Shown here: one piece after another, positions 6,177 to 28,959 of the stretch
Layout of the letters: each line of letters opens with the position of its first letter
Position numbering within the stretch: the stretch's first letter is position 1
Source of the DNA: a virus
Strand: one strand, 5' to 3'
Length of the DNA stretch: 33,168 nucleotides
IMG/VR virus record: IMGVR_UViG_3300030116_005460
Coordinates: 1 to 33,168 of that record
Translations under genes and position numbers: made by a program
Notes under the pieces: generated by a model
The model's input: only the letters and a program-made list of their open reading frames with translations
Database searches by the model: none
What the model was told of the DNA's origin: nothing

Positions 6177-7076
6177 ATGGCCATAGTGGTTAGGTCGTTC
6201 GGAAGGGCTGACCTGATAAAACAAATGACACTAAAGGTTCTTGCAGAACAAAAAGATTTATCTTTAGATAAGGATCTTTATCTTGTCGTGCATACAGATG
6301 AAGTCAAGGAATATGAACGTACCCTTAAAGATTTTCCTATCGCTGATTTAATTGTCAAGACCAAGAAAGGTGGGCATGAATCAATAAAGGCAGCGCATAA
6401 GCATTTTCCAGAAGGTGAACCATTAGTATTCCTTGATGATGACAATATCGGATTCCAGCATTATCAGAAGCTCGACGCGAAGGCTGAAACCAGAATGCTC
6501 AATCTTGGTGAATACATTGAAGACGCATTTTTAACTTTGAGCAACTACAGCTGGGGTTCGTGGACTGCAAATCTCATCACTAATTTTCATTGGATGAAAG
6601 GAAAGCCATGGAAAGAGTTTAGACCTTATCACATGGCAGGTGGATTTTGGGGTGCGTATAATTCGTCTCTCATTCCTACAAATACCGCACATGAAGACGA
6701 TAGAGTACGGACGGCAAGATACATTGAGAAATACGGAGGATGCCTCGTATACAACTGGATTGGTAGCAAAGGTTTTGAACGCACCGTATCAGGCGGGATG
6801 CAATCATCTGGAGATAGGGCAAATGAAAAAGCCAGATACATGAAAACATGGGGCATTTGCAAACACTTACACCGTACGGACCGACTTTATCACAAATATC
6901 ACACCGAACCGTACTATAAAAAAAGCACTGGATATTGGACTGTAAGACTGAAATCAATCACCCAAATGAGGAAATTGCGTCATTTTAAGCATTACAAATG
7001 GTCAAATTACTTTCAAGGTCCTCAAAATCCTGACAAACGGTGGGTAATCGGGTCCAGAAAAGGACCTAAATTTTAA
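6177..7076 (+). CDS. TET-associated-type glycosyltransferase (TAGT, GT-A fold)
   Basis: The 299-residue protein begins AIVVRSFGRADLIKQMTLKVL, the opening typical of TAGT glycosyltransferases (S-x-G-R-A near the N-terminus, then T-L). It has the GT-A metal/nucleotide-sugar motif LDDDN at 86-90. These enzymes occur in phages with TET/JBP oxygenases and are thought to transfer sugar to hydroxymethylated bases in DNA. Here the TET/JBP gene is 6.5 kb away on the same strand. The basic C-terminus (residues 230-299, many Lys/Arg/His) could bind DNA. It starts one base after the preceding stop. A cell-surface glycosyltransferase is the main alternative. Confidence 0.65.
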   Translation: MAIVVRSFGRADLIKQMTLKVLAEQKDLSLDKDLYLVVHTDEVKEYERTLKDFPIADLIVKTKKGGHESIKAAHKHFPEGEPLVFLDDDNIGFQHYQKLDAKAETRMLNLGEYIEDAFLTLSNYSWGSWTANLITNFHWMKGKPWKEFRPYHMAGGFWGAYNSSLIPTNTAHEDDRVRTARYIEKYGGCLVYNWIGSKGFERTVSGGMQSSGDRANEKARYMKTWGICKHLHRTDRLYHKYHTEPYYKKSTGYWTVRLKSITQMRKLRHFKHYKWSNYFQGPQNPDKRWVIGSRKGPKF

Positions 7077-7128
7077 TCTTTTTTCACTGAATAGTATACT
7101 GGTGAGCGTGGGATAAAATTTAAGTCCT

Positions 7129-7737
7129 TTACCAAGGGAGATAGTTATCAAGAAGTTGCCTTGAGTTTTCGTCATCAAAGTATTTCACAACAATCCTCAC
7201 TCCTACCCAGCTTTCTGTCTTTGTTTTAAAATCATAGGAACAAAAAACTTTCTTAGAGTTGATTTGGTATACTTGATTATCGTCATGGATTGCTATGCCA
7301 CTTAGACAATCAAGGTACAGTTTATCACAATTGTCAATATCAGGTTTTGTGACATGTGGTATAAAACCAGCTTCAGCTTTTTTAGTTTGTAATCGTTTGG
7401 GCCTTGGGAATATGTAAAGCAAATCAAGCGCGACAGGAACGCCTGCAGGCATAAATACCTGCGACTGATTGACCAACATTTGCAACCTCAGCTGCTCTAA
7501 TGCATTTTTTTTGCCTTCAATGAATTTCTTTGATTTGTAGAACGCTCTGGGTTTTCCGTTCCGCAAAGCAATAGAATGGCGAACCTGAGATACAGGAACG
7601 CCACTCAAATTAAACTCGCTTGCTACTTTAGTCGCCAGTCCAGTTTGACCCGTCTCTTTTTTCTCCGGGTCCAAGGGTATGTTTAATTGGCGTGACCCAC
7701 TGTTGGTATCGTTTGAGTTCATAGTACCACAATTCAT
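7129..7737 (-). CDS. RusA-like Holliday junction resolvase
   Basis: Contains the RusA signature KPDIDNCDKLYLDCLSGIAIHDDNQV (about 130-155), with the conserved acidic residues in DIDN, LD and HDDN that bind catalytic metal. The preceding strand VPVALDLLYIFPRPK also fits. RusA-family enzymes cut four-way junctions and process branched replication products before packaging. The 202-residue frame overlaps the upstream gene by 110 bases; an internal ATG at 7722 or a later codon may be the real start, because the RusA domain begins only around residue 65 (AFYKSKK). It is last in the 9639-7129 gene series. Confidence 0.75.
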   Translation of the reverse strand: MNCGTMNSNDTNSGSRQLNIPLDPEKKETGQTGLATKVASEFNLSGVPVSQVRHSIALRNGKPRAFYKSKKFIEGKKNALEQLRLQMLVNQSQVFMPAGVPVALDLLYIFPRPKRLQTKKAEAGFIPHVTKPDIDNCDKLYLDCLSGIAIHDDNQVYQINSKKVFCSYDFKTKTESWVGVRIVVKYFDDENSRQLLDNYLPW

Positions 7738-8653
7738 AGACTGATTTTGCTATCTCTAATTTACTAATAGAATCACACTTTATTGGCAAAAGGTTGTGGT
7801 CAGGCCGAGAGTATTGTAAGGCAGTAGCAAATTGCTTGGCCGCATAACGATTTAGGCCATAATGCTGACGGAAGTGGTTATTCAAAGCTTTCAATGATTG
7901 GTCAATGTAAAGCCCTTGAAGTTGCGCTTCTCTAATACCGGATTGAATATTTGCCAAAACGAGGTGCATATATTTGCGCCTATCAGCATATTCTACATTG
8001 AAAACTCTGTCCTCTTTTGCACCGGGTGGTTGGTGTTTGTACCCGTCAATATCATCAACGGCAAATACCGCATGTGGTGTCCAAGTGATGACAGCTTGAA
8101 ACAAGTTGTACTCATTAGTGTAGTAAACATTGTCCTCTTCCATCGCTTTATGAAAAAGGATTTGTTGCATATCTTCTTGGGGCTCACCTTTTTCACCGAA
8201 TAAAATATCATCAGGAATGATATCTTTAAGGAAGTTCCACTGTATACGAGCCATGGCCTTGTTAAGCAATTCATAACGGAAGTCAGGATTGTCAACGGCA
8301 TTAGCCATGTAGCGATAAAAGAAACTCAGTAATGACAAACGAACATCATACTCATCTTGAGAATGAACATCATGCTTAGCGCGATATTTTAATTGTGGGT
8401 GTAACCGTTGAGGCATATCAGGGTTCTTATCCTCTAAGACTTTTTGACCAGCGGTCATCAGCCATATTGGGCAAGGTTGAACTGGTATGCCATGAAACAT
8501 CATGCGCCATGGTATTCCGTATGCGTCTTCAATTAAAACGGACTCAGTATCATTTAGTGAATCTGGTCTAACGATTTTAGCCCAATTTACACATGGCAGC
8601 TTTTCAAGTTTTTCTATCAGGGAAGGTTCCCAGGTCTCTTTTACAAATTGCAT
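7628..8653 (-). CDS. Hypothetical protein, unknown function
   Basis: A 341-residue soluble protein, rich in aromatic residues and His, that I do not recognise. It lacks signal peptides, membrane segments and obvious nucleotide-binding motifs. Its ribosome site (AATAGGAAATAAA before the ATG) follows one of the conserved AGCAAACAAC leader elements, so it may have its own transcript start. It sits between the annealing protein and the RusA-like resolvase, so a part in DNA replication or recombination is plausible from context only. Its 3' end overlaps the resolvase gene by 110 bases. Confidence 0.7.
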   Translation of the reverse strand: MQFVKETWEPSLIEKLEKLPCVNWAKIVRPDSLNDTESVLIEDAYGIPWRMMFHGIPVQPCPIWLMTAGQKVLEDKNPDMPQRLHPQLKYRAKHDVHSQDEYDVRLSLLSFFYRYMANAVDNPDFRYELLNKAMARIQWNFLKDIIPDDILFGEKGEPQEDMQQILFHKAMEEDNVYYTNEYNLFQAVITWTPHAVFAVDDIDGYKHQPPGAKEDRVFNVEYADRRKYMHLVLANIQSGIREAQLQGLYIDQSLKALNNHFRQHYGLNRYAAKQFATALQYSRPDHNLLPIKCDSISKLEIAKSVYELWYYELKRYQQWVTPIKHTLGPGEKRDGSNWTGD

Positions 8654-8707
8654 TTTATTTCCTATTGGTTGTTTGTTTGTTGTTTGCTATATTGCCAAAA
8701 GTATGGC
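8654..8707 (-). promoter_or_regulatory. Conserved AGCAAACAAC leader element upstream of the 8653 gene
   Basis: On the minus strand AGCAAACAAC (8688-8679) lies 26 bases before the ATG. It is preceded by a weak 4-bp hairpin (GCCA 8707-8704 with TGGC 8697-8694, loop of six) and followed by CCAATAGGAAA, similar to the leaders at 31775 and 32587. The element overlaps the stop of the small membrane ORF 8687-8788. Confidence 0.5.
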
Positions 8708-8788
8708 GAAAGATATGAAGAAGGCGACGAGGCCCATCGCCCATATGTCTTCAATGACTTCGTTTGCTATTTTAGTTTGCTTATCCAT
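8687..8788 (-). CDS. 33-residue single-pass membrane peptide
   Basis: A small ORF whose ATG overlaps the stop of the annealing-protein gene (TAATG), giving 33 residues: a charged N-terminal half (MDKQTKIANEVIEDIW) then a hydrophobic C-terminal helix (GLVAFFISFAILLAI). The tight stop-start coupling and clear amphipathic-plus-membrane layout support a real gene. Function unknown; small phage membrane peptides include inhibitors, holin partners and host-takeover proteins. Its 3' end overlaps the leader of the next gene. Confidence 0.5.
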   Translation of the reverse strand: MDKQTKIANEVIEDIWAMGLVAFFISFAILLAI

Positions 8789-9639
8789 TAGAATGGTACC
8801 TCATCGTAGTTATCAGATTTAGTGACAGGTTTATGTGACCCCATCATCTGTCTGGCTTTTTCTTCATCACTTAAAACATAATCTAATGCCTCTTGTTCAG
8901 TAGGTTTGCCCATGTGCTGTTCAAGTGCATCGAAAATGCCGTTTGTGTTTTTGTCAAGGCTTTCGATTAATTTAGTGACCACGCTCGATGACCACATAGT
9001 GATATCGCCTTTAATTTTGACAACATCTCGAGAAAACTCAACAAGCTGATTAAAGCTACAGCCCCAACGCGGATATGCAGCCGCAATCAATTGCAAAGCT
9101 GCGTTGTTATCCTCTGCTTTCTTTCGGTATGCGTTGTGGTTGTTTATCTCTTTAAGCAACCCAACGTTCTTTTGTGCTAACTCTTCGAGAGTTCGTTTTG
9201 ATAGACCGTCAGTTTGCTCTCTTTCCTCGGCAAGTTCCTCGAAAGCTGTCATTGCTAAATCTTTACCGAGAGCCAGCCTTGACGCTCTACAAATCGCACG
9301 CGTTTCGGCCATACGGAAAAATGCAGTTTTGATTCCCGCTGAACAGTTTTTCTGCGTAGCATCACCATGACCGACGTATTGCTTTCCGCTTTCAGTCGTG
9401 ATTGTGCATCTGAAAAATGCATAGCCATCTTTGTAGCTGAACTCAAGTGGGTCAGTTTTGATAGACTGTATTTTCTCATGGTCATTATTTCTAAGTAGAC
9501 CTAACAATAGTCCAGTGAATAGGACGTATTCTTTGCCGCCTCTAACCTTGATGACATGCCCTTGGTCTCGGACAATATCTATCAACGGTTTTGACAGTTC
9601 TTCTGCTTTTGGTGTTTTCGGTGTTTTGGCTTTAGCCAT
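8788..9639 (-). CDS. Rad52/DdrA-like single-strand annealing protein
   Basis: The 283-residue protein has a segment typical of phage Rad52-like (Sak/DdrA) annealing proteins: a beta strand FFRCTITTESGKQYVGHGDA followed by the helix FRMAETRAICRASRLALG (about 108-125), where the M-A-E-T-R-A-I-x-R-A pattern is characteristic. Such proteins anneal single strands in recombination-dependent replication. The C-terminus ends in an acidic stretch with YDEVPF, resembling the SSB tail that recruits partner proteins. ATG 9639 has a strong AGGAG site just downstream of a conserved leader element and a sigma70-like promoter. The small membrane peptide gene is coupled to its stop. Confidence 0.65.
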   Translation of the reverse strand: MAKAKTPKTPKAEELSKPLIDIVRDQGHVIKVRGGKEYVLFTGLLLGLLRNNDHEKIQSIKTDPLEFSYKDGYAFFRCTITTESGKQYVGHGDATQKNCSAGIKTAFFRMAETRAICRASRLALGKDLAMTAFEELAEEREQTDGLSKRTLEELAQKNVGLLKEINNHNAYRKKAEDNNAALQLIAAAYPRWGCSFNQLVEFSRDVVKIKGDITMWSSSVVTKLIESLDKNTNGIFDALEQHMGKPTEQEALDYVLSDEEKARQMMGSHKPVTKSDNYDEVPF

Positions 9640-9711
9640 ACTATCTCCTGTTGTTGTTTGCTGTGAAAGGCATAGTGCCTACAATAAAATTAACTCAATT
9701 AGGACGGTCAA
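9640..9711 (-). promoter_or_regulatory. Promoter and conserved hairpin/AGCAAACAAC leader of the annealing gene
   Basis: On the minus strand TTGACC (9711-9706), a 17-base spacer and TTTATT (9688-9683) form a sigma70-like promoter. The predicted transcript starts at a short hairpin (AGGCA 9680-9676, loop of three, TGCCT 9672-9668), followed by ACAGCAAACAAC (core 9662-9653) and an AGGAG ribosome site. This is the clearest example of the hairpin plus AGCAAACAAC leader found before several minus-strand genes. Confidence 0.6.
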
Positions 9712-10096
9712 GCCCGACCTTTGTGACAAACCGAGCAATGCCGCCCAGTGTGGTTTTGTACTCTTTTGCTAAGTCTTGAAGCAGCTTTTTATCCTCATCC
9801 GGTAGGACAAAACTCACTTGACCGCCATTCTGCTTTCCTCTATCTTTTCTGCCTCCTTTACTACGTTTGGAAGGATGTTTGATTCTTGCGTTACAGCTGC
9901 TGCAGTTAGTTTCTTGCCATCCGTATGCTGGCCGCGTGTTGATAGTCCCGCATTTTTTACAATGAACGTGACACATGAGTTTGTCATGTCCAAGTATTTG
10001 GTTTCCGCAATGCTCACATTGAGCCTCACTAATCCTACCGATAATCTTGGTCATTTTACCGCAGTGTCTGCATCTGGTTTCCATTTGCTTATTCAT
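9695..10096 (-). CDS. Double zinc-ribbon and ribbon-helix-helix DNA-binding protein
   Basis: The 133-residue protein has Cys pairs at C9/C12, C27/C30, C46/C49 and C65/C68, enough for two zinc ribbons, then a basic linker (KHPSKRSKGGRKDRGKQ) and a C-terminal segment VSFVLPDEDKKLLQDLAKEYKTTLGGIARFVTKVGL (94-129). That segment has the strand-helix-helix pattern of Arc/CopG RHH proteins. It is probably a sequence-specific DNA-binding regulator, possibly acting on the phage's own promoters. An AGGAGG site precedes the ATG. It is the last gene of the 11953-9695 series; the promoter of the annealing gene overlaps its 3' end. Confidence 0.65.
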   Translation of the reverse strand: MNKQMETRCRHCGKMTKIIGRISEAQCEHCGNQILGHDKLMCHVHCKKCGTINTRPAYGWQETNCSSCNARIKHPSKRSKGGRKDRGKQNGGQVSFVLPDEDKKLLQDLAKEYKTTLGGIARFVTKVGLDRPN

Positions 10097-10105
10097 TATG
10101 TCCTC

Positions 10106-10492
10106 CTAATCGAACATCGTTGTTGAAAATGCGCCATTGTGTAAAGCGTGGGCGAAATCGTTTGGGCCGTCATCATCATTAAGAACTTTGTATTCTATGC
10201 TTGATGGGCTTGGTCCTGAGAAGTCGTAAACACCGGGTCTTCGTTTTTTTGGCTTGAGCTCATTGAGTTTATGTTTCAATGAATCGACCTCAAGCCTGAG
10301 TCCGGTAATTTCAACATCTTTATTTCTTACTGTATCTTTTAGGCATTCAACGACAGACCTGTGTCTCTCACACATACTGCAGTTCTTATTCTGTCTAAGA
10401 ATATTGAGTGCGCTATGCAGAAGGAGTCTATTATCTGAGTCACTTTCAGCAATCAGTTGGAATAGTGTTTGATAAGCGGAAATCACATCCAT
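10106..10492 (-). CDS. Hypothetical coiled-coil protein
   Basis: I choose ATG 10492, which follows a good ribosome site (GAGAGG) and comes right after the stop of the upstream gene; the longer frame to 10555 has no such site. The 128-residue protein has a helical N-terminal half with CSMCERH (a possible metal or redox Cys pair), a leucine-heptad coiled coil (VEITGLRLEVDSLKHKLNEL) and a basic linker before an acidic C-terminus. No family recognised. Its location among early-type genes suggests a regulatory or replication accessory role. Confidence 0.6.
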   Translation of the reverse strand: MDVISAYQTLFQLIAESDSDNRLLLHSALNILRQNKNCSMCERHRSVVECLKDTVRNKDVEITGLRLEVDSLKHKLNELKPKKRRPGVYDFSGPSPSSIEYKVLNDDDGPNDFAHALHNGAFSTTMFD

Positions 10493-10493
10493 T

Positions 10494-11216
10494 TTATTTA
10501 TCCTCTCTTGATATGCCGGCAATATGCGTAATCGCGCGCCATGTTTCATCTGCAAAAGTTTCGTATGGGCCTTTCAGTAAATAAGTGCTTTTTTCTGAAG
10601 TCGGTTTCGGTGTAAGCTCTTGGCTCTCATGAGACGGTGCGCCCCAATAGTAATCGTTTGGGTCGTTATCAACCCATAGAAGCTTATTGACCGCAGAGGC
10701 TTTCATTCTCCACTTCACTTCATTCTTTAGAAATCTATCTCGCTTCTTGGTGTAAATGTTTGGCAAATGGCGTTTGTAAAACTGTATACGACCATTAGCT
10801 CCTTTGACGTAGTTGAAGTGATGGTCATGTTTTGAATCACACCAATCAAGTAATTTGCACTTGACCATCCAATAGTAAACAAGCTTGACTCGGTCTGCAG
10901 TAAACACGCCACTCGGATGGTTCCTATCACCTACGAAAATCCCATAAGGGTCAGCCCAATATCGAATCATTTTTAGAGTCTCATTGATAGTGACCACCTT
11001 CTTTCCATTCTCCCATGTAGAATTGTGGTTTAAGAATACGACTACTGCGTCGGTCACCTTTCTTAGTCTGTCAATATCTGGATTCATTGATAGAAAATAC
11101 CTTGACATCCAAATGGTTATCTCCTCCTTAGAACCGTCCCTCGGCTTTTTTGGCTTCTTTTGGTATGAGCCCAAATCTACTGGCTGTAGTCGTAATGTTT
11201 GCTGTTTGTCTTTCAT
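10494..11216 (-). CDS. Hypothetical protein, possible replication-related
   Basis: A 240-residue basic protein (ATG 11216 overlapping the upstream TGA, with GGAG upstream). It is rich in Trp, Tyr, Lys and Asp. Residues 28-130 look like an alpha-helical domain (VTDAVVVFLNHNSTWENGKK, DRVKLVYYWMVKCKLLDW) that could be a winged helix, but this is not certain. No catalytic motif seen. It is translationally coupled to the 11953 gene, and together these may be the phage's origin-binding or primosome-type proteins; this is inference from context only. Confidence 0.6.
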   Translation of the reverse strand: MKDKQQTLRLQPVDLGSYQKKPKKPRDGSKEEITIWMSRYFLSMNPDIDRLRKVTDAVVVFLNHNSTWENGKKVVTINETLKMIRYWADPYGIFVGDRNHPSGVFTADRVKLVYYWMVKCKLLDWCDSKHDHHFNYVKGANGRIQFYKRHLPNIYTKKRDRFLKNEVKWRMKASAVNKLLWVDNDPNDYYWGAPSHESQELTPKPTSEKSTYLLKGPYETFADETWRAITHIAGISREDK

Positions 11217-11953
11217 CAACTTCTCCTTTTATTTTTTAGCTGATATTTTACTCGCCTGACTTGACGAGCAATTTCTTTAGGGTCCATCTTTTCGAACTCA
11301 TGATTTACCTTCTTTGGATTCTCAAGCTCGAAGGTTACAAAATCAAGATACGGATGGTCTTTAAAATACGGAATGAGTTTTTTGGGTGGGCATGGTCCGA
11401 CGTCTAAATGCTCATAGCCTTTTCGTAGACACCGGAAATGCCAACCCCAATGATTTTCGTTATCCCATTCTTTCGGCCATGGGATGTCACTGTAAATCTT
11501 CGGCTCCTTTAGGTATAAAGCAGGTTGTTTCATTAGGAACTCTTGCAGCAGTGAAATAGTACTGACTTTTAGCTCTTGCCGCTCCTGTGCGGTCAATGAA
11601 GGTGCCTTTGGCTTCGGCTTGGGGTGAATGGGCCTCTTAGGTTTTAGACGGCTATTTTGGGCCTCTGGGAACCGCTTCGTTCGTATAAGCCAACCTTGGA
11701 CTCTGGCCTTCCAACTTTTGCCCCACTTTTTAGGCCTCGCCTCGTCTTCACCAAGCCAAATATCAATTTGCTTCAGCTCATCAACTACATCAAGGTTGTT
11801 CGGATTCTCAAGGTTGAGTATCCATTTCTCCAACTGCTTCTCGTCCCTATATATGAATTGATAATTAGTAATTAAGATAATTACTAGATTATATATATCT
11901 ATATATAGGGAACTCTCAGTAGAAAGTTCTTTGTTCAGTTTGCTGTCAGTCAT
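11216..11953 (-). CDS. Hypothetical protein, possible replication initiation factor
   Basis: A 245-residue protein that begins the 11953-9695 gene series. After an acidic N-terminus it contains KKWGKSWKARVQGWLIRTKRF (about 75-95), resembling the short Trp-containing helix (W..R...WL.R) seen in DnaT-like and phage replication proteins. A Pro/Lys-rich linker (KPKRPIHPKPKPKAP) and a basic C-terminus follow. A role in replication initiation or DNA binding is plausible but unproven. It is divergent from the 12217 operon; the 263-base gap carries regulatory elements. Confidence 0.55.
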   Translation of the reverse strand: MTDSKLNKELSTESSLYIDIYNLVIILITNYQFIYRDEKQLEKWILNLENPNNLDVVDELKQIDIWLGEDEARPKKWGKSWKARVQGWLIRTKRFPEAQNSRLKPKRPIHPKPKPKAPSLTAQERQELKVSTISLLQEFLMKQPALYLKEPKIYSDIPWPKEWDNENHWGWHFRCLRKGYEHLDVGPCPPKKLIPYFKDHPYLDFVTFELENPKKVNHEFEKMDPKEIARQVRRVKYQLKNKRRS

Positions 11954-12042
11954 AAGTTTCCGTCCTCTATATAGTAATTAACTGCCTAAGGAACGCTGCG
12001 CCCCCAAAATACGTTCCTAAATTTAATTTAAAATACAGCGCA

Positions 12043-12138
12043 TTACATCGTTGAGGTGGTAAACGGCTCACCTTGAGCGTTGTAAAGGGTTTGCACATTT
12101 ACCAACTTGTGATAGCATAGAAATATGACATCAGGCAT
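12043..12138 (-). CDS. Possible 31-residue peptide downstream of a leader element
   Basis: On the minus strand a hairpin and ACAGCAAACAAC (core 12160-12151) are followed 12 bases later by an ATG opening a 31-residue frame (MPDVIFLCYHKLVNVQTLYN...). The arrangement copies that of real genes elsewhere in this genome, but the usual AGGA-type ribosome site is absent (AACAGCCAATAG instead) and the peptide has no recognisable features. It may be a leader peptide, a decayed gene, or chance. Confidence 0.2.
   Translation of the reverse strand: MPDVIFLCYHKLVNVQTLYNAQGEPFTTSTM
12091..12118 (+). promoter_or_regulatory. Candidate sigma70-like promoter for the 12217-17599 operon
   Basis: TTGCAC (12091-12096), 16 bases, TAGCAT (12113-12118) on the plus strand. 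A transcript from here would carry an approximately 90-base leader containing the hairpin at 12163-12195. The rest of the 11954-12216 gap is AT-rich near the 11953 start and shows no other gene that I can support apart from the weak 12043-12138 frame. Confidence 0.4.
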
Positions 12139-12162
12139 CTATTGGCTGTTGTTGTTTGCTGT

Positions 12163-12199
12163 AAAGGCAGGTTGGGATAGGCTTGACCTGCCTTTTTTT
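12163..12199 (+). terminator. Intrinsic terminator/attenuator in the leader of the 12217 operon
   Basis: A perfect 10-bp stem (AAAGGCAGGT 12163-12172 with ACCTGCCTTT 12186-12195, loop of 13) is followed by further T residues to 12199, 17 bases before the ATG of the 12217 gene. No upstream plus-strand gene needs a terminator here, so it may act as an attenuator that a phage antiterminator or timing factor overcomes. On the minus strand the same hairpin precedes an AGCAAACAAC element. Confidence 0.55.
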
Positions 12200-12216
12200 A
12201 AAGGACGGAACATAGT

Positions 12217-12696
12217 ATGGATTTATCCAAAATCACCAGCGTATCGCGTTGGCGTATACCTCTATTTGATGGGGTCCTGCATATTGAAGGCAGAATCCTT
12301 TCGGTGACCGAAGCTGAAGCCGCAGGTTTGACAAGCGCTCTCATACTGGCCGCGATGTCTAACCCCGAGGAGATGAACAAGGTCAATAGCATGAAGGGTA
12401 AAAAAAAGGATGCCTATCTTTATGATATGGCGAAACGCATTAAACCTCACCAAATCGCACAGCTTAATGAGGCCAACGACAAAATCATTTGCCAAGTGAT
12501 TAAACGTGGCAGCACTGACGGTGGTAAGAACTGGTCTACTTTAAAGGTAGTGACAGCTGAAGAACAACAAGACCCCGAAGAAAACATTCTGTGGGTCGGT
12601 GTCATTAATGAAAATGATAGGCAAGCCATTTTAGATAAAGCCCTTGAGGGACACAAGGAGGCCGTTGCTCGGATTGCCAACTTTCGTAAACGATGA
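12217..12696 (+). CDS. Putative tail assembly chaperone, short (G-like) frame
   Basis: A 159-residue protein with ribosome site AAGGA before ATG 12217. It is followed by an overlapping open frame (+1/-2) lacking a strong start of its own, which is the classic G/GT layout of tail chaperones that coat the tape measure during tail assembly. The N-terminal RWRIPLFDGVLHIEGRILSVTEAEAAGLTSALILAAM fits a small alpha/beta protein. It lies far from tube and tape-measure genes, which weakens the call. An alternative is a regulatory or modification-linked protein, since the next genes are ParB-like and TET/JBP. Confidence 0.45.
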   Translation: MDLSKITSVSRWRIPLFDGVLHIEGRILSVTEAEAAGLTSALILAAMSNPEEMNKVNSMKGKKKDAYLYDMAKRIKPHQIAQLNEANDKIICQVIKRGSTDGGKNWSTLKVVTAEEQQDPEENILWVGVINENDRQAILDKALEGHKEAVARIANFRKR

Positions 12697-12709
12697 GGAC
12701 TATCTTCAC

Positions 12710-12907
12710 ATGCTTGATATTGTCGCAACTAACTACGGAACACTGCCATCTGAAATAGCGAAGCTTGATTGGGCTGACCTTGTCGTATGCGTAGCAGCCC
12801 TCAAAACCAGAAGTGAAAGGCTTGATAAGCTTATGAGAAAAACCAACCGCAAAAAGCAAATGATATTCCCAACTATCAATCTCACTGATTTAATTAATGG
12901 ACTTTAA
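12710..12907 (+). CDS. Putative T-like chaperone extension or separate small protein
   Basis: The frame is open from about 12629 to 12907, overlapping the end of the 12217 gene. ATG 12710 would give 65 residues (MLDIVATNYGTLPSEIAKLDWADLVV...). A +1 (or -2) shift near TTTCGTAAACGATGA (12682-12696) would instead fuse it to the upstream product. The helical NYGTLPSEIAKLDW segment resembles the T part of tail chaperone fusions. No slippery heptamer of the lambda type was seen. The last 11 bases overlap the ParB-like frame. Confidence 0.45.
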   Translation: MLDIVATNYGTLPSEIAKLDWADLVVCVAALKTRSERLDKLMRKTNRKKQMIFPTINLTDLINGL

Positions 12908-13562
12908 TATGCCAGAATCCCAAGAAGTAGCAGCCGTCTTCGTTGATATACAAACCATTCACCCACACCCAGACAACCCGAGAATGAATCAAGACGCCAT
13001 TGATAGCGTTGCAGATTCTATACGCAAGTTCAAGTTCGGGTCGCCAATCGTAGCCAGAAAAGAAGACCGCGTGATTATCGCTGGACATACACGCTATGCG
13101 GCATCTTTAAAACTTGGCCTTGAAAAAGTACCAGTTCGATTTTTAGACTTAGACCCGGTCGACGCCAAACTATTGATGATCGCTGATAATAAACTTGGCG
13201 AAAAAGCTCAGTGGGACTTTATGAAAATGAAAGACATTTTTGCTGAAATAAAAGATATCAGTGATGATGATATTCAAGCCATAGGCTTTTCAGTAGAAGA
13301 ATTCAACGGCATACTTGAGAGTGATTTTAATTTTGACTTTAATGAAACCAACCCAGAAGACAATTGGCATGATGATGATGACGCTGATTATGACGATGAC
13401 GATGAAACAAGATTGAGAGTCATTCAGCTTTACTACCCAAAAGACCAGTTCATACAAATATCTGAGATGCTAAATGATTTGGCTACGCACTTCGGAACTG
13501 ATAACCACACTGATACTATTTCCGGTGTTGTACAAACATTGCATTCTACTTTGAAACTGTGA
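12897..13562 (+). CDS. ParB-like N-terminal domain protein
   Basis: The 221-residue protein contains a ParB/Srx-type domain: HPHPDNPR (22-29), FGSPIVARKEDRVIIAGHTRYAAS (47-70, with the GHTR nucleotide-binding box at 63-66), then VPVRFLDLDPVDAKLLMIADNKLGE. An acidic linker (DDDDADYDDDDE) separates a small C-terminal domain. It lacks the HTH and dimer domains of true partition ParB. Stand-alone ParB-like proteins of this kind are regular neighbours of phage DNA-modification enzymes. The start is ATG 12897 or, in frame, 12909. The stop overlaps the GTG start of the TET/JBP gene. Confidence 0.75.
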   Translation: MDFNMPESQEVAAVFVDIQTIHPHPDNPRMNQDAIDSVADSIRKFKFGSPIVARKEDRVIIAGHTRYAASLKLGLEKVPVRFLDLDPVDAKLLMIADNKLGEKAQWDFMKMKDIFAEIKDISDDDIQAIGFSVEEFNGILESDFNFDFNETNPEDNWHDDDDADYDDDDETRLRVIQLYYPKDQFIQISEMLNDLATHFGTDNHTDTISGVVQTLHSTLKL

Positions 13563-14422
13563 AACAAATAACCGCCAAAAAAGTCTATGTCGTACCTGAT
13601 GATCTGAAGTTCCGTTTCGCAGAAGACCGCGACTATGATTTATCTATCTCAGGTGGGACCGTTGTTCGTGACGTTGATAACGGTGAGATTGTATTGGCTC
13701 TGATTGATAATGCCGCTCCAGCTTCATTGTATAATCCCGCATTTTCAGCCATGTATAAACTTAGGAACACGACAAATACAAATCGTGGCAACTATGGTGG
13801 TATTCCGCGTCAGCATAGATACCGCAGTTTGAAAACCACCTATGGCGCAAAAGTCTCCTCAATAACTGCAGGCGCATTTGAAAGCCAAGGTGGTCGCGCT
13901 CGATGCTGTAGGCAATGTGCTTGGAATAGAGACAACCCAAAAGCATGGGGTAAAGTAAAGAAACTTGTCAGACATTTAGGTGGCGTATACAAACAACACG
14001 CTCCGTCTAAGTATGCTAACTCAATGGGATTCGCTGAAAAGATACACCCTGATTGGCTTATATCTGGAACACCATTTACAACGACAACGATAAACAACAG
14101 CGTGAAAGCTGCGTATCACACAGACACTGGAGATTTTAAAGGAGGTCTCGGTTTGCTTTACACTCTGACAAAAGGAGTGGTTATGAACTGGGATTTAGTC
14201 ATGCCCGAATATCGTATAAGGGCAAAACTAAAGAACAATACACTCCTACTTTTTAACCCTCATTTGTGGCATGCAAATATGACTGAGTCAACAGGTTTGG
14301 GTGAAAAGAACAAACAGTATTCCCGCATATCCTTAGTCATGTATGCCAGAGAAAAGATGACTGAATGTGGATCTGCACAAGAAGAAATCCAAAAAGGCAA
14401 AATGAGAGCAGGTTCAGTATGA
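13559..14422 (+). CDS. TET/JBP-family 2-oxoglutarate/Fe(II) DNA base dioxygenase
   Basis: The 287-residue protein carries the facial triad and cosubstrate residues of TET/JBP oxygenases: H187-x-D189 in AAYHTDTGDF, H238 in NPHLWHAN, and R256 in YSRISLVMY for the 2-oxoglutarate carboxylate. These enzymes hydroxylate the 5-methyl group of 5-methylcytosine or thymine within DNA. A Cys cluster RCCRQC (115-120) is unusual and might bind metal. GTG 13559 overlaps the ParB-like stop, and the kinase ATG overlaps its own stop, so oxidation and the next step are translationally coupled. No cytosine-C5 methyltransferase is visible, so thymine or host-made 5mC is the probable substrate. Confidence 0.8.
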   Translation: MKQITAKKVYVVPDDLKFRFAEDRDYDLSISGGTVVRDVDNGEIVLALIDNAAPASLYNPAFSAMYKLRNTTNTNRGNYGGIPRQHRYRSLKTTYGAKVSSITAGAFESQGGRARCCRQCAWNRDNPKAWGKVKKLVRHLGGVYKQHAPSKYANSMGFAEKIHPDWLISGTPFTTTTINNSVKAAYHTDTGDFKGGLGLLYTLTKGVVMNWDLVMPEYRIRAKLKNNTLLLFNPHLWHANMTESTGLGEKNKQYSRISLVMYAREKMTECGSAQEEIQKGKMRAGSV

Positions 14423-15048
14423 GTTTAATTATCTATGTCGTTGGCCCACCAGCATCAGGAAAGACCACGCTGGTTAGGCAGTTCCTTTACATGAAAAGCA
14501 ACATCCTTATCAACTCACCGAAAATAACTTTGTCAGCTATGAAGCAAAGTCTTATCAAAGATGACAAACCAACCAAGTTCCCGATATGCGCGGCTGGTCA
14601 TTATTCTGGAAATAAGTTTGACGGTGCTGACACGATACCGATTAGCCAAATACATAAGACAATCAAGTACATGGTTAAGAATGATTTCTGGGACGCTGAG
14701 TACACTTTTCTTGATGGCGATAAACTTGCATCTATGAAGCTTCGTCACTTCTTTTCATTGTTTGAAACTGTATGTATTTATCTTGATATATCTATGGAAA
14801 CCCATATAGAACGCGCAGCGAAACGCAAGAGTAAACAGAACCTGACATGGGTCAAAGGAAGGTTTACTAAAGCACGTCGTTTCTATGAGACATTCCCAGA
14901 GAATAAGCGACTCCGGTTGAATGCTGATAAAATGACAACCGAGGAGATGTTCAAGGCATCAGAAGATTTTCTGTATCCTCATTGGAGTAAGCTCAACTCG
15001 GCTAGAAAAAAAGAAGAGGCGCACAATGGGAAGACCGTCAAAATTTGA
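14419..15048 (+). CDS. P-loop kinase, candidate 5-hydroxymethyl-base DNA kinase
   Basis: From ATG 14419 (overlapping the TET/JBP stop) the 209-residue protein starts with a Walker A motif GPPASGKT (9-16). It continues with an adenylate/polynucleotide-kinase-like layout: a Walker-B-like YTFLDGDK, and a basic lid region HIERAAKRKSKQNLTWVKGRF. In phage hypermodification pathways such kinases phosphorylate the hydroxymethyl group in DNA so that it can be replaced by another group. The direct coupling to TET/JBP supports that role. It lacks the helical extra domain of the characterised 5-hmdU kinases, so a general nucleotide kinase remains possible. Confidence 0.65.
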   Translation: MSLIIYVVGPPASGKTTLVRQFLYMKSNILINSPKITLSAMKQSLIKDDKPTKFPICAAGHYSGNKFDGADTIPISQIHKTIKYMVKNDFWDAEYTFLDGDKLASMKLRHFFSLFETVCIYLDISMETHIERAAKRKSKQNLTWVKGRFTKARRFYETFPENKRLRLNADKMTTEEMFKASEDFLYPHWSKLNSARKKEEAHNGKTVKI

Positions 15049-17161: not shown

Positions 17162-17176
17162 AACAATGTGGTATAC

Positions 17177-17599: not shown

Positions 17600-17600
17600 A

Positions 17601-18880: not shown

Positions 18881-18888
18881 GTTGTCTC

Positions 18889-21332: not shown

Positions 21333-21334
21333 TT

Positions 21335-23830: not shown

Positions 23831-23890
23831 TTTCTACCCCATGTTGCATAGAGTCTATCATATTTGAGCCAATATGTTGTTACATGGAGA

Positions 23891-23930
23891 AAACTAAAAA
23901 GGCGACGGCAGATGTGCGTTGCCGTCGCCT
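23891..23930 (-). terminator. Strong intrinsic terminator after the 24618-23950 gene
   Basis: A perfect 10-bp G/C-rich stem (GGCGACGGCA 23901-23910 with TGCCGTCGCC 23920-23929, loop of nine) is followed on the minus strand by a T run (TTTTTAGTTTT). It closes the single-gene unit 24618-23950 and insulates the tape-measure gene. Confidence 0.85.
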
Positions 23931-23949
23931 TCCGTCCTAATAGCGCACA

Positions 23950-24618
23950 TCACCCGATATAGTTTTCCTCAACCTCGTAGAAAGCTCGGTCCGTTAAACC
24001 GAACGGTGGGCAGTGGTGTATAATTTCAGATGAGTCAAACTTTTTGCCACGTTCCGTACGAGCGTCGTTTAATTCGTTCCAATCTAAAACGTGACTTTCT
24101 GATACGATAGTGCGCCACCAGTATGGAGTGCGTCGACCGTTATGACGGATAGGAGCGCGGAACCAAGTAGCGAAAGCTTTAGTGCGGTAGAACTGACGAT
24201 AAGCGTGAACAGGTCTATCGGGAATCTGCAAATGCTCAGGCATACATTGAGGATGAGGAGTCAATGGGCCAGAAGGAATAAGGTTTGCCATAGTACCAAT
24301 CTGACGGATAGCAAAACTGCAAGCATGAAACTTTCCGTATCGTCGATGATATTGATTACAAATAGCCACGCCATGACGATATAGCCATAGGAAATTGGTA
24401 CGAGTATCGCCAGCCCATACAGTACATGGATGGAAACGATAGCCGCCACGATACGGAGTGCCTTTTTTAGTGAGCGGCATATCTGATGGTTTTGCACCAT
24501 GACGTAGAACAGCAGCTGCAAGCATTTGCGCAGACTCGACAGCCATTTTGGTAACGTGCTCGTCGCATAACATGGTCGCTGCAATTTCGGGTCGGTTGTG
24601 AAGGACAAATATATTCAT
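23950..24618 (-). CDS. Pyrimidine-dimer DNA glycosylase-like protein
   Basis: The 222-residue protein starts MNIFVLHNRPEIAATMLCDEHVTKMAVESAQML, closely resembling a phage family annotated as pyrimidine-dimer glycosylase-like (N-terminal FVLD..P..AA.MLCDKHV.KM). It also has HPCTVWAGDTRTNFLWLYRHGVAICNQYHRRYGK (about 62-95) and C-terminal FRAPIRHNGRRTPYWWRTIV. The known DNA-repair members cut pyrimidine dimers with an N-terminal amine. It has its own leader, promoter region and terminator, so it is an independent unit inside the tail region. Its codon bias towards CG-containing codons (for example ATAGGAGCGCGG context) looks slightly different from its neighbours. Activity on DNA is inferred. 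Confidence 0.6.
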   Translation of the reverse strand: MNIFVLHNRPEIAATMLCDEHVTKMAVESAQMLAAAVLRHGAKPSDMPLTKKGTPYRGGYRFHPCTVWAGDTRTNFLWLYRHGVAICNQYHRRYGKFHACSFAIRQIGTMANLIPSGPLTPHPQCMPEHLQIPDRPVHAYRQFYRTKAFATWFRAPIRHNGRRTPYWWRTIVSESHVLDWNELNDARTERGKKFDSSEIIHHCPPFGLTDRAFYEVEENYIG

Positions 24619-24665
24619 GAGGTACCTCTATTGTTGTTTGCTGTGAACGCGGGAAACATACCCGC
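24619..24665 (-). promoter_or_regulatory. Conserved hairpin/AGCAAACAAC leader of the 24618 gene
   Basis: On the minus strand GCGGG (24665-24661), loop of seven, CCCGC (24653-24649) is followed by ACAGCAAACAAC (core 24642-24633) and then a GAGGT site before the ATG. An AT-rich stretch with TATAGT/TAGTAT near 24690 could provide the -10 box. Layout matches the leader of the annealing gene at 9640-9711. Confidence 0.6.
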
Positions 24666-24720
24666 ACTACAAATTTAACCCGTTAAATACTATATAGCTA
24701 ACGATAGAGGACAATTACAT

Positions 24721-25929
24721 TCAAAGTTTTACGCACCATGTTCTGGCTTTTCTTGGTTCAGAATCGCTTTTCACGCTGACTACCGGAACGGTCGTGCAAC
24801 GGCAATTTATATCCATTGACGCAGCACCAAACTGCCCAGGACCTTGACCTGCAAATCCGTTAATTATAAAATCATCAGCGTGATGGATAGCTTGTTCGTC
24901 AGTCCCATACTTCTGTTCTAAGTCAAGGTGTTCCTCTCTTGTGTATTGATCCCTATTTGCTACCCACGCCTTTTTTACTTCAAGGTCAAAGTCCTCTTCA
25001 GCAATGCTATATGAACGCAAAGTTGCTTTAGCGATTGCATTTGTACTTTCAGTTCGGGCTATCCTCATGGCTCTGGCTTTACCGAATGTCTTGTCTTCGT
25101 CATCAGGCAAATCAGCTAATGCGTCAGCAATCTCGTCAAGGCTTTCACCTTCTAACAAACCTTTTTGTACCAGTTCTTTAATTTGCTTTCCGCTGGTTTT
25201 AGAGATTTCTTTTGCAACTCTTAGCATTTCGTAATCAGAGAAATTGTCTTCACCCCATACGTAGTTTGGGGGCAATGGCTTTCCGGCTAATTTCAATAAG
25301 TTCCTTAGAGTCTTGAGGCCTGCTTTATCAAATGTCCCTTGCCACGCACCGGGTGTACCGGATATCAATCTGCCATTTTCAAACCTATCGGGCTCACCTT
25401 TCAAATACTTTAAGAGTATGATTGATTCATCAATAGCAGCTTGAAGTTCGTTCCAATCAAGTACTTTGTCAACACCATTAGGAAATGATTTTTTGCTCTT
25501 TGATTGCCTAATCCTTTTGACGTATCTTGCTTTCGCGCCTTTTAGGTAGTCTCTCATTGCTTTGTCAAACTGCTTTTCAGCCGGACCATGCATTTTTTCA
25601 ATATAGGCATTCCATATTTGAGCTCGTTTATCTCGGACGTGTATTTTTTTGGCGTCCTCCCGTTCCATTTGACCTACTAATTTATTTGACCAAGATACGG
25701 CAGGGTCTCCACCCCATAACGCCCACGCTACACGACCAGCAGAAGGAAAGCCATCTTGATCTGGATAGAAGCCTTCGCCGTCTTTATCTGACTCATGACG
25801 AGCAAGCCAAGCTCTCATCTTTACAGCTTTCTCTGGTGATATATCAGCACCATTAGCCATTCTCGTTGCCCAAGCAACGGTGTCGGGATTTAGGCCATCG
25901 CCACTGAATCCTTCCTCATGCCATTTCAA
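24721..25929 (-). CDS. MuF/SPP1 gp7-like head morphogenesis protein
   Basis: The C-terminal part has the MuF signature: ARAMRIARTESTNAIAKATLRSY, then KKAWVANRDQYTREEHLDLEQKYGTDEQAI and the closing INCRCTTVPVV, found in minor head proteins that act beside the portal in capsid assembly or ejection. The N-terminal part (KWHEEGFSGDGLNPDTVAWATRMANG, then WLARHESDKDGEGF and RVAWALWGGDPAVSWSN) is another conserved module of phage head proteins. Conserved sequence continues upstream of the only in-frame start (TTG 25929) as YEEIDFSVPKGVVSELKKG to an in-frame TAA at 25998-25996. The true product is therefore probably made by -1 frameshifting from the portal gene. Confidence 0.75.
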   Translation of the reverse strand: MKWHEEGFSGDGLNPDTVAWATRMANGADISPEKAVKMRAWLARHESDKDGEGFYPDQDGFPSAGRVAWALWGGDPAVSWSNKLVGQMEREDAKKIHVRDKRAQIWNAYIEKMHGPAEKQFDKAMRDYLKGAKARYVKRIRQSKSKKSFPNGVDKVLDWNELQAAIDESIILLKYLKGEPDRFENGRLISGTPGAWQGTFDKAGLKTLRNLLKLAGKPLPPNYVWGEDNFSDYEMLRVAKEISKTSGKQIKELVQKGLLEGESLDEIADALADLPDDEDKTFGKARAMRIARTESTNAIAKATLRSYSIAEEDFDLEVKKAWVANRDQYTREEHLDLEQKYGTDEQAIHHADDFIINGFAGQGPGQFGAASMDINCRCTTVPVVSVKSDSEPRKARTWCVKL

Positions 25930-25973
25930 ACCTTTTTTTAGTTCGCTGACTACACCTTTTGGAACACTAAAAT

Positions 25974-27230
25974 CTATCTCTTCATATTTTTTTTTTTAAA
26001 ATAGCTGAAGTCAAATGCCTCTTCTACTGGCTCTTCAATAACTTCGTCAGCTACGACGGTCGGTGCTGAAATCAATGACATCTCAGGAGCGTCAACCAAA
26101 CCTTCATATGCGTACGCATCATTCGGGTTCATACCATTTGCTATGTGCATCTGTATTCTGGCAAGTTGCGCGTCACGCTTAGACTGTAGTGCTTCAATAC
26201 CACTGTAGTCAATTTGTACCATATAGTTTTCATCAAACGTCTTGGCTACAATTGTGAAAAGGTGTTCAAATAACTTTCCTTTTTTCTGCTGCATTTCCCA
26301 ATAGTTTAATGCTTCCTGTCTTGACGTTGCGTAGTTTGCCGTCGGGAGGCCAAGTATAGAAGGAGGAACACCAGCGACAGCACTAATGCTTTCTCTCGCC
26401 ATGATTCTCGCCTTTTCGTATTCAACGTCGCGTGGCGATAATTTAAGTTCGGTGACGTCAATTTGGCCTGAGAGAACCATCGCCCCTCCTTTCGCACTGA
26501 GACCGTTGTACTGGTCGAGTATTTCGCGTCTTCGGTCGTAACCCCAAATATCCGCTTCATCTTTTGGCGAAAGTAAAACATCCGGCCTTCCTTTTGAACT
26601 GGCGTTGCTGGCTAATTTCATGGCGTTGATATCTGCGTTGATTTCCATATTAAGAGGCTCAATGATACCAGTACCGTACAATGAACTTGGTCCGGTGGCG
26701 TATGATGGGCCTCGCAAATGTATTACACGTTGAGGTTCATAAACTACGGACTCGCTGCCAGAAGTATGAATGTAGCCAGTAACGCCTGTCCGGTCAGTTT
26801 GGATTTCGACTTCGTCTGGGTGTAGTCGTATCAGGCTGGTAGGCGCAGTTTGAACGCCAAGCATTACGACATACGAATTACCGGATAGCATTAAATCCAT
26901 TGCTATTTGCTGACGGAATAAGAATCCGTCACATGCCATAGATGGTTGGTCAATCAGCTCTAAAAAAAAGCTATCAAATATCTCTTCAAAAGTTTCGCCT
27001 TCACGTTTCAAAAGCTTCAACGGCAAAGCGGCTAAATCCTGTGAAGAACGCTGAACCGCAGCATGAGTATAGCCATGCCCACCATAGGCAGAAAGCGCAG
27101 TCATCGCGTCATAAGTTTGCCGCGCACCATAGGGAGTATCCCAGTTCGCTCCATGATTAGGAAGCTTGGGCTTTTTTTCAACCTTGAAAGCTCGGGCGAC
27201 TGTACCAAATAGAGAAGTTAACCAATTCAT
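25974..27230 (-). CDS. Portal protein
   Basis: A 418-residue HK97-type portal. It has the opening NWLTSLFGTVARAFKVEKKP, a segment ALSAYGGHGYTHAAVQRSSQDLAALPLKLLKR (about 45-76), LMLSGNSYVVMLG, and the stem-region IMARESISAVAGVPPSILGLPTANYATSRQEALNYWEMQ, which are typical of portal proteins. It forms the 12-fold ring through which DNA enters. ATG 27230 is chosen because GGAGG lies 5 bases upstream. Unlike in most phages it is not beside the terminase and is transcribed opposite to the prohead protease and capsid. Its end contains the homopolymer linked to the MuF frame. Confidence 0.85.
   Translation of the reverse strand: MNWLTSLFGTVARAFKVEKKPKLPNHGANWDTPYGARQTYDAMTALSAYGGHGYTHAAVQRSSQDLAALPLKLLKREGETFEEIFDSFFLELIDQPSMACDGFLFRQQIAMDLMLSGNSYVVMLGVQTAPTSLIRLHPDEVEIQTDRTGVTGYIHTSGSESVVYEPQRVIHLRGPSYATGPSSLYGTGIIEPLNMEINADINAMKLASNASSKGRPDVLLSPKDEADIWGYDRRREILDQYNGLSAKGGAMVLSGQIDVTELKLSPRDVEYEKARIMARESISAVAGVPPSILGLPTANYATSRQEALNYWEMQQKKGKLFEHLFTIVAKTFDENYMVQIDYSGIEALQSKRDAQLARIQMHIANGMNPNDAYAYEGLVDAPEMSLISAPTVVADEVIEEPVEEAFDFSYFKKKNMKR
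25984..25998 (-). promoter_or_regulatory. Candidate -1 frameshift (slippery A11) site joining portal and MuF
   Basis: On the minus strand TTTT is followed by 11 A residues (25997-25987) and TAT. The portal frame reads this as F-K-K-K-N-M-K-R-stop; the MuF frame is open from the base after an in-frame TAA and lacks a usable start. A one-base backward slip, or an extra A in the transcript, would create a portal-MuF fusion. A wrong homopolymer count in the assembly would look the same. Confidence 0.55.
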
Positions 27231-27278
27231 TTTGACCTCCGACATTGTGAATATATCGCACAAATAGGTTGAATGCCT

Positions 27279-27290
27279 TATACTTAATTC
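27279..27290 (+). promoter_or_regulatory. -10 box directly before the HAD gene, leaderless geometry
   Basis: TATACT (27279-27284) ends 6 bases before ATG 27291, so transcription would start at or next to the A of the start codon. No Shine-Dalgarno site is present. No convincing -35 box was found. The same geometry occurs at 32738-32749. Confidence 0.4.
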
Positions 27291-27809
27291 ATGATTGTGT
27301 ATTTCGACATGGACGGAGTCTTATCCAATCTCGATGGCTATTTGACTTGGCTTCAAGAACATGACTGCTTTCAGCTTCATGGTCCGAGAGATGTAGTGTT
27401 AGCTCAAGCGTGTAAAAGATATGGACACAGAAATGTGTTTTATGCTTTAAGTACGATTAAACGACCAATGATGATACAATGGATGACAGAACTGTATAGT
27501 CAAGGCGTCAGCGTGCAAATACTCACGTCATTAGGTACGACCAATGCCTTGGATTGCTTGGGTCGTTATCGTGGTAAAATAGACTGGTTACATCGGTTCT
27601 ATCACCCACAACTAAAAGACGGCATTATTGAAAGAGTCAACGTGGTAACAACATGCGACCAGAAAAAACTCTACGCAAAAGATCAAACGATTTTGATAGA
27701 TGATCAACGGGATAATGTTTATGACTTCAATAAGGCAGGTGGTCTGGGGGTTTTGTATACGCAGGAACATCATGAAGCCTGCTACAAATTAGTTGACAAT
27801 GCAATATAG
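27291..27809 (+). CDS. HAD-superfamily phosphatase (5'(3')-deoxyribonucleotidase-like)
   Basis: The 172-residue protein has HAD motif I DMDGVLSNLDG (D6, D8), motif II at ILTS (77-80), a later Lys (K125/K126/K130) and motif IV DDQRDN (137-142). Length and motif spacing fit small phosphatases related to deoxyribonucleotidases. Substrate unknown: deoxynucleotide monophosphates, a DNA-linked phosphate or inositol phosphate are all possible given the neighbours. It overlaps the next gene by 11 bases, so the two are probably co-expressed. It diverges from the portal gene. Confidence 0.75.
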   Translation: MIVYFDMDGVLSNLDGYLTWLQEHDCFQLHGPRDVVLAQACKRYGHRNVFYALSTIKRPMMIQWMTELYSQGVSVQILTSLGTTNALDCLGRYRGKIDWLHRFYHPQLKDGIIERVNVVTTCDQKKLYAKDQTILIDDQRDNVYDFNKAGGLGVLYTQEHHEACYKLVDNAI

Positions 27810-28959
27810 GCATCCTGTCAATAAAGATAAACAGTGGGTTGATTGGCGTGACCCGGTGCGACGCGAAGAGCTTTTTTACCTATGGGTGAAGTGGCGAGTA
27901 AAATGGCATGACATAGACCAGTGCATAATTACAAACGGATATGCTGAGTCGCAGCTTTCGCCTACAAAAAAGCCTATGACAAAAGAGCAAAGATGCTGGT
28001 TCTCCATGATTTACGGCATGACATATCAAGCGACAATGTCTTGGATTATCTATTCTTACTTTCCTAACTTCGGTGATATAAATCTGAAAGACGCGGAGGC
28101 TTGGACTAACCAAACCTATAGGAGACAGAAATACAATAAGGACTGCAGATACAACCAAGGAAAGTTTCATTTACAACTCAAATCGATTCAAGAAGCTGTA
28201 AGACCGTATGGTAGCTTGACTGCATATTTTGACAGGCTGGTTGTTGATTGTGAACATCAATCTTTTAACAATTTTTACAACGCGATACAGCCATTTTACA
28301 AATTTGGTCGTATGACAACATGGCTGGCATGTCAGGCTTTGTTTGAAACGGCAAACTACCCGATTAGGCCAAAGTCAGTACTTGCTTCGCATCCAGCAAA
28401 TTGGTCCGTTAGATCTGGCCTATACCAACTCTTCAATCGACCAGAAAAGAAGAAATCATTTAATAAAGATGATGTCAACTGGATAAAACAAAAGGAAGAT
28501 GAGGTCTATAAGAAAAGCTTAGAGTTCGTTGACCTTCAGAGCAGGCCAACTTGGTCAAACTTTCAACTTGAATCATTGATATGCCAATACAAAAAACTTG
28601 TTTTAGGAAACGAGTACTCAGGATTGAACACATCAAACAACCTTACATACGTCAAGGCGATGGAACAAAAATGGAAGTCCGTTAATTTCACACCTTTCCA
28701 TGAAACGAATCGGAAACACATGCACCCATTGTTCCGAAACTATTGCGTCAGCCAACCATTAAAAAAGCTATCCGGTTTGACCGGACAGCTTATAAACTTG
28801 CATCAAGACTTTGAGTTCATGCCTGATATGTATAAAGAGCTTGGGATATCTCCGCAGATACTAAAAAGTCCGAAGCATGTTCCTATTTTGAAAAAGCGGA
28901 TAGCGAGTTATCAGAAGTATCAGTCACAACGGTTTGGTCGTTATCCTCGTCAAATATAG
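27799..28959 (+). CDS. Putative DNA-hypermodification transferase (amino acid:DNA transferase/aGPT-PPlase-like)
   Basis: A 386-residue helical protein of basic, aromatic-rich character. The segments WFSMIYGMTYQATMSWIIYSYFP (67-89) and YKFGRMTTWLACQALFETA (167-185), with a basic TYRRQKYNKD between, recall the family predicted to attach amino acids or polyamines to activated bases in phage DNA (DNA-glycosylase-like helical fold). With a TET/JBP oxygenase and P-loop kinase in the same genome, it could be the enzyme that replaces the phosphate with another group. The exact clade is uncertain and activity is inferred. ATG 27799 overlaps the HAD stop. The last 77 bases overlap, in the opposite strand, the 3' end of the inositol-phosphate synthase gene. 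Confidence 0.55.
   Translation: MQYRHPVNKDKQWVDWRDPVRREELFYLWVKWRVKWHDIDQCIITNGYAESQLSPTKKPMTKEQRCWFSMIYGMTYQATMSWIIYSYFPNFGDINLKDAEAWTNQTYRRQKYNKDCRYNQGKFHLQLKSIQEAVRPYGSLTAYFDRLVVDCEHQSFNNFYNAIQPFYKFGRMTTWLACQALFETANYPIRPKSVLASHPANWSVRSGLYQLFNRPEKKKSFNKDDVNWIKQKEDEVYKKSLEFVDLQSRPTWSNFQLESLICQYKKLVLGNEYSGLNTSNNLTYVKAMEQKWKSVNFTPFHETNRKHMHPLFRNYCVSQPLKKLSGLTGQLINLHQDFEFMPDMYKELGISPQILKSPKHVPILKKRIASYQKYQSQRFGRYPRQI

Follow-up and report, generated by a model that had tools for sequence, protein, structure and literature searches.

A phage genome with a dispersed gene set for predicted thymine hypermodification, possibly with inositol

We examined a viral DNA stretch of 33,168 nt (IMG/VR record IMGVR_UViG_3300030116_005460, positions 1 to 33,168; hereafter the window) for a predicted DNA-base hypermodification pathway. 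The ends of the record share an 84-bp overlap that has one mismatch, and closing it yields a circle of 33,084 bp with a protease gene intact over the join. The window genes included a terminase, head and tail proteins and RusA, and no DNA polymerase was recognised among them. The initial annotation had named a TET/JBP oxygenase, a P-loop kinase, a TAGT-type glycosyltransferase and an amino acid:DNA transferase (ADDT), and all four open frames were present at the coordinates in Table 1. It had overlooked a gene for myo-inositol-phosphate synthase (MIPS), which left its proposed product incomplete, and an NT5C/HAD-type phosphatase gene whose end overlaps the start of the ADDT gene.

The TET/JBP call, made on the HxD pair at 187/189, H238 and R256, was borne out by a PF12851 score of 72.3 bits (cut-off 34.9). 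The iron ligands H187, D189 and H238 (HxD...H) were invariant in 40/40 relatives, the 2-oxoglutarate arginine R256 was kept in 37/40, and the TET profile matched human TET2 chains at 2.6e-4. The ParB-like partner proposed for it was recovered as a ParB_N-domain protein, and 47 of 80 phage TET loci hold a relative of it. The P-loop kinase also stood, with two Pfam models (AAA_33 and Ploopntkinase3) above their cut-offs and P-loop residues G9, G14 and K15 invariant (42/42); the kinase-family profile matched PaMx11 gp49 at 7.7e-9. The window kinase showed no match to PF18723 (HMUDK_hel) or PF18747 (HMUD2), models that describe other kinase types or a separate helical domain. Base kinases of this kind (L145:19218-19787, L002:14970-15608 and that of the window; L numbers denote surveyed loci, L002 being Caulobacter phage Cr30) matched PHROG_800 or bore the name 'terminase small subunit'. 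Both labels are likely misannotations, as is that of the Cr30 TET, which is annotated as an SNF2 repair protein.

The transferase call was upheld by a PF18724 score of 66.5 bits (cut-off 26.2) and by its fold. The AlphaFold2 model (predicted local distance difference test, pLDDT, 89) matched PUGT (PaMx11 gp46, PDB 8z2m) with Z 17.1 and a root-mean-square deviation of 3.7 over 257 residues, and the second fold match had a Z of about 8. PUGT is a solved 5-phosphomethyl-deoxyuridine (5-phosphomethyl-dU) glycinyltransferase that belongs to PF18724, and PaMx11 encodes the kinase related to that of the window three genes from it. The ADDT sequence profile gave no convincing match against the PDB, and an ADDT alignment search of GTDB genome contigs returned no matches.

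The MIPS scored 89.6 bits with PF01658 (cut-off 27), and its closest PDB match was 1gr0, the Mycobacterium tuberculosis Ino1 (1.8e-74). Residues K258, K262, K297, K359 and D323 were invariant in 135/135 phage sequences; the four lysines correspond to the yeast catalytic lysines. The NT5C/HAD family was also found in the MIPS operons L011 and L016.

The glycosyltransferase had no direct Pfam match, PF20691 (TAGT) included. It matched PHROG_842, a phage hydroxymethylcytosine glucosyltransferase family. It was 38% identical to the product of the gene beside the Cr30 ADDT and MIPS (L002:10952-11878), itself a sub-threshold TAGT match (8.5e-4), and a profile derived from the window and Cr30 proteins matched the true PF20691 member Serendipitous gp3 at 1.7e-8. 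On these profiles the protein appears to be TAGT-like. Its structure model was poor (pLDDT 38) and supports no fold assignment, and its sequence profile gave no convincing match against the PDB.

Table 1. Pathway genes of the window, and MIPS-phosphatase pairs beside 7-deazaguanine genes in other records.
Feature	Position	Strand	Profile match	Predicted role or remark
TAGT-like glycosyltransferase, LDDDN motif	6177..7076	+	PHROG_842 2.3e-5	Predicted last, decorating step
ParB_N-domain protein	12897..13562	+	PF02195 2.1e-8	Possible DNA-binding partner of TET
TET/JBP 2-oxoglutarate/Fe(II) dioxygenase	13559..14422	+	PF12851 3.5e-20	Predicted thymine 5-methyl hydroxylase on DNA
P-loop kinase	14419..15048	+	AAA_33 5.8e-7; Ploopntkinase3 1.1e-6	Predicted 5-hydroxymethyl-dU DNA kinase
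NT5C/HAD-type phosphatase	27291..27809	+	PF06941 6.4e-4 (below cut-off); PHROG_2643 1.5e-20	Possible inositol-phosphate phosphatase or deoxynucleotidase
ADDT (PF18724) transferase	27799..28959	+	PF18724 3.8e-18	Predicted to replace phosphate of 5-phosphomethyl-dU with a nucleophile
Myo-inositol-phosphate synthase (MIPS/Ino1)	28883..30133	-	PF01658 1.8e-25	Convergent with ADDT; 3' ends overlap 77 bp
MIPS and small HAD beside 7-deazaguanine genes	L003:12007-14485; L037:9995-12325; L042:9998-12310			

Viral contigs scanned with a single TET or MIPS protein returned no matches, and family alignments were needed. Only 19 records of the annotated phage collection had a MIPS match; besides Cr30 these were mainly Stenotrophomonas phages, and the one inspected (Moby) carries MIPS within a 7-deazaguanine cluster. 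Scanning IMG/VR with a MIPS profile yielded 80 loci, and linkage was counted over 83 MIPS phage loci. An ADDT or an HMUDK_hel-type (ADDT-superfamily) transferase lay within 7 kb in 72/83 of these, never both, and a HAD phosphatase was present in 75/83. TET and a thymidylate-synthase-like (TS-like) enzyme never occurred together in the 7-kb neighbourhoods. In searches of whole records, those with ADDT proved to carry TET or, in its place, a divergent TS-like gene; Cr30 combines TET with a thymidylate synthase of the ordinary kind. Some TS-like frames had apparent stop codons; recoding in these frames found no clear support from coding density computed with translation tables 4, 15 and 16. In one large phage group (L010, L013 and L039) the partners of MIPS were a transferase of the HMUDK_hel type and an unassigned 355-aa protein.

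The usual operon order among the loci of the ADDT scan described below was TET-[GT4, FkbM or TAGT]-ADDT-MIPS-HAD-kinase, in which the slot between TET and ADDT was filled by a GT4 enzyme, an FkbM O-methyltransferase or a TAGT; enzymes of each of these types act on hydroxyls. In L016, kinase, HAD, ADDT, GT4, MIPS and TET followed one another within 6.1 kb. Pfam searches and clustering found no further ligase or amino-acid enzyme common to the compact operons. The description of the pathway as dispersed thus held for the window genome but not for many relatives, where the same genes form a single operon. A Pyr_excise-like protein of the window (23950-24618, PF03013 5.8e-7) had relatives in nine examined MIPS loci.

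Scanning with ADDT added 49 loci, a few of them other views of records already counted, with MIPS in 46, TET in 38, a small HAD in 42 and the kinase in 37. The query alignment was built from MIPS-linked ADDTs, which biases the MIPS count upward, and the opposite test was therefore made with a TET scan. Among its 80 loci the kinase was present in 52, ADDT in 26 (all with the kinase) and MIPS in none. The idea that TET implies MIPS was thus rejected, and the 26 MIPS-less loci show that TET, kinase and ADDT alone do not predict MIPS.

In a tree of the ADDTs from both scans (the long-branched ADDTs of L009 and L034 being omitted), the MIPS-linked ADDTs formed one clade with 100/100 support. The window ADDT lay inside it, grouped with 17 other rows at 99/91, and all MIPS-less ADDTs but one lay outside. 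N119 and Q179 are among the positions that do not vary within the clade. The MIPS label required 2 changes on the tree against a mean of 21.7 in shuffles, with 0/500 as low; near-copies inflate this statistic, but the single clade is independent of that. The window retains the ParB-TET-kinase association common in MIPS-less TET loci, yet its ADDT belongs to the MIPS clade. We read the window as a mosaic, in which the ADDT-MIPS pair was kept together while other parts follow a different arrangement.

That these genes form one pathway is well supported. In line with the initial annotation, which saw no nucleotide-level hydroxymethylase, PF00303 (thymidylate-synthase-type hydroxymethylase) had no match anywhere in the closed genome, and neither had PF00145 (C5-cytosine methyltransferase). 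Because the window closes into a circle, both absences hold for the complete genome, and because of them the entry to modification is likely thymine, oxidised within the polymer, as judged from gene content.

In the pathway that we propose, TET would oxidise the thymine methyl in phage DNA to 5-hydroxymethyluracil and the P-loop kinase would convert this to 5-phosphomethyl-dU. MIPS would make inositol-3-phosphate from host glucose-6-phosphate, from which a HAD-type phosphatase would release inositol. ADDT would then swap the base-linked phosphate for inositol, and the TAGT-like glycosyltransferase would put a sugar on the inositol. The order of oxidation, phosphorylation and substitution is supported by the family and fold match to PUGT and by the related kinase near it in PaMx11. 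Inositol is suggested because MIPS is the substrate-making enzyme common to the operons and tracks the ADDT clade, and because the enzymes of the variable slot act on hydroxyls. We give inositol about an even chance of being the group that ADDT moves, and judge the whole scheme, a post-replicative thymine hypermodification with inositol, to be equally balanced between right and wrong. The earlier proposal, in which the polymer is hydroxymethylated first and kinase and transferase act afterwards, holds up, and PUGT uses the same 5-phosphomethyl-dU, but with kinase and ADDT in 26/80 TET loci the route is not unique to this genome.

Several observations weigh against the inositol scheme. Two loci with identical ADDTs, L108 and L132, have a MIPS-clade ADDT but neither MIPS nor TET in records of 89 and 109 kb; HAD and kinase accompany it in both, and L108, being nested in the clade, reads as a loss. 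The TET-kinase block of the window is most like that of MIPS-less loci (TET about 35% identity). The small HAD typical of the other MIPS operons is missing from the window, whose NT5C protein might simply be a nucleotidase, given that the Ackermannviridae ADDT, where there is no MIPS, also has an NT5C gene next to it. Relatives of MIPS are able to make other cyclitols (6k96). Finally, the only characterised close fold relative of the ADDT moves glycine, so the substrate of the ADDT may still be an amino acid, in which case inositol would be attached at another point.

This last point leads to a rather unlikely alternative, in which the group that ADDT puts on 5-phosphomethyl-dU is an amino acid, for example glycine, and inositol either comes in at a later stage or is the acceptor for the glycosyltransferase. 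The activity of PUGT and the kinase-ADDT pairs of the MIPS-less TET loci would fit it, but the presence of MIPS follows the ADDT clade and the compact operons share no extra ligase or amino-acid enzyme.

A second alternative concerns the base: TET could oxidise cytosine, as host- or phage-made 5-methylcytosine, which would be compatible with the inositol readings. The phage TET systems characterised so far reportedly act on 5-methylcytosine. We consider this improbable here, since PF00145 was absent not only from the window but from the other TET-MIPS records tested, the complete Cr30 included, and since the TS-like enzymes of ADDT and MIPS loci without TET carry the dUMP-type Asn. In TS-like enzymes Asn marks the dUMP type (acting on deoxyuridine monophosphate) and Asp the dCMP type (deoxycytidine monophosphate); those of HMUDK_hel loci, where present, carry the dCMP-type Asp.

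It is decidedly improbable that the enzyme makes some cyclitol other than inositol, or that inositol keeps a phosphate, and that this is the group attached. The second-best PDB match of the MIPS, 6k96, is a five-membered-cyclitol-phosphate synthase, but 1gr0 was far ahead (254 against 161 bits) and the catalytic lysines were all conserved; the missing small HAD would suit a phosphorylated product, against which stands the HAD phosphatase of most MIPS loci. It is highly improbable that MIPS, as an auxiliary metabolic gene, serves the inositol or lipid metabolism of the host and is unrelated to DNA: the phage Ps15 paper lists MIPS as a bacteria-like gene only (PMC9025141), but most MIPS loci are operonically linked to base-modification genes, including the Menderavirus que cluster, and MIPS is tied to one ADDT clade.

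Beyond thymine, MIPS and the same small HAD stood beside QueC/D/E and FolE in three records without an aGPT-type transferase (L003, L037 and L042), in L036 the pair adjoined a QueC-like gene, and the Ps15 MIPS lies inside the que cluster. This suggests that inositol may be placed on a purine-type base too. We put forward, tentatively and as somewhat less probable than not, that MIPS and a HAD phosphatase act as a general plug-in, providing the inositol for hypermodification of thymine, cytosine and 7-deazaguanine. Thymine would be reached through TET or a dUMP hydroxymethylase with ADDT, and cytosine through a dCMP-type enzyme with the HMUDK_hel transferase.

Relatives in about a hundred other phage sequences retain MIPS together with a single branch of ADDTs, to which that of the window belongs, and this suggests an inositol-decorated DNA base, of which no report is known to us. 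A full-text literature search for inositol in phage base modification gave nothing relevant, with an earlier mention still possible. If the prediction is true, a recurrent gene module makes a new DNA moiety; if the plug-in reading is true, inositol-bearing bases are a widespread and, as far as we know, so far unreported class in phages. Such bases would bear on restriction evasion, their presumed purpose, and on modification-dependent defence and DNA-labelling tools. The MIPS-linked ADDT clade provides a sequence marker for finding such modification, and Cr30 is a cultured phage with the full gene set.

We place the window as a variant of phage thymine hypermodification, the inositol plug-in being the broader new case. 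The thymidine hypermodification of the M6/ViI/PaMx11 type is said to employ an hmdUMP (5-hydroxymethyl-dUMP) synthase, a 5-hydroxymethyl-dU DNA kinase and ADDT. The window shares with it the ADDT family and fold, and its P-loop kinase is a relative of PaMx11 gp49, but there a TS-like enzyme acts on dUMP whereas in the window TET would act on DNA; the window adds MIPS and the TAGT-like enzyme, and no amino-acid-processing enzymes were found.

The mycobacteriophages Serendipitous and Nigel resemble the window in having TET near a related kinase and terminase, and Serendipitous also has a TAGT, but the regions examined had no ADDT or MIPS match, and Serendipitous has a PIG-L deacetylase instead. 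There the TAGT and then PIG-L (GlcNAc-PI de-N-acetylase) lie between TET and kinase (L091:1773-3091), which recalls GlcNAc-inositol chemistry. The 7-deazaguanine clusters share the MIPS-HAD pair among QueC/D/E and FolE but use other base chemistry, and the paper on 7-deazaguanine DNA modification makes no mention of inositol (Hutinet 2019, PMC6884629).

For the cluster of Caulobacter phage Cr30 (KF301602) we found no published pathway. Cr30 has TET, ADDT, the TAGT-like gene and MIPS within 6.5 kb, a small HAD just beyond the cluster and a related kinase 1.8 kb on. Unlike the window, it is a T4-like phage of 156 kb that brings its own replication genes, and its pathway genes are contiguous.

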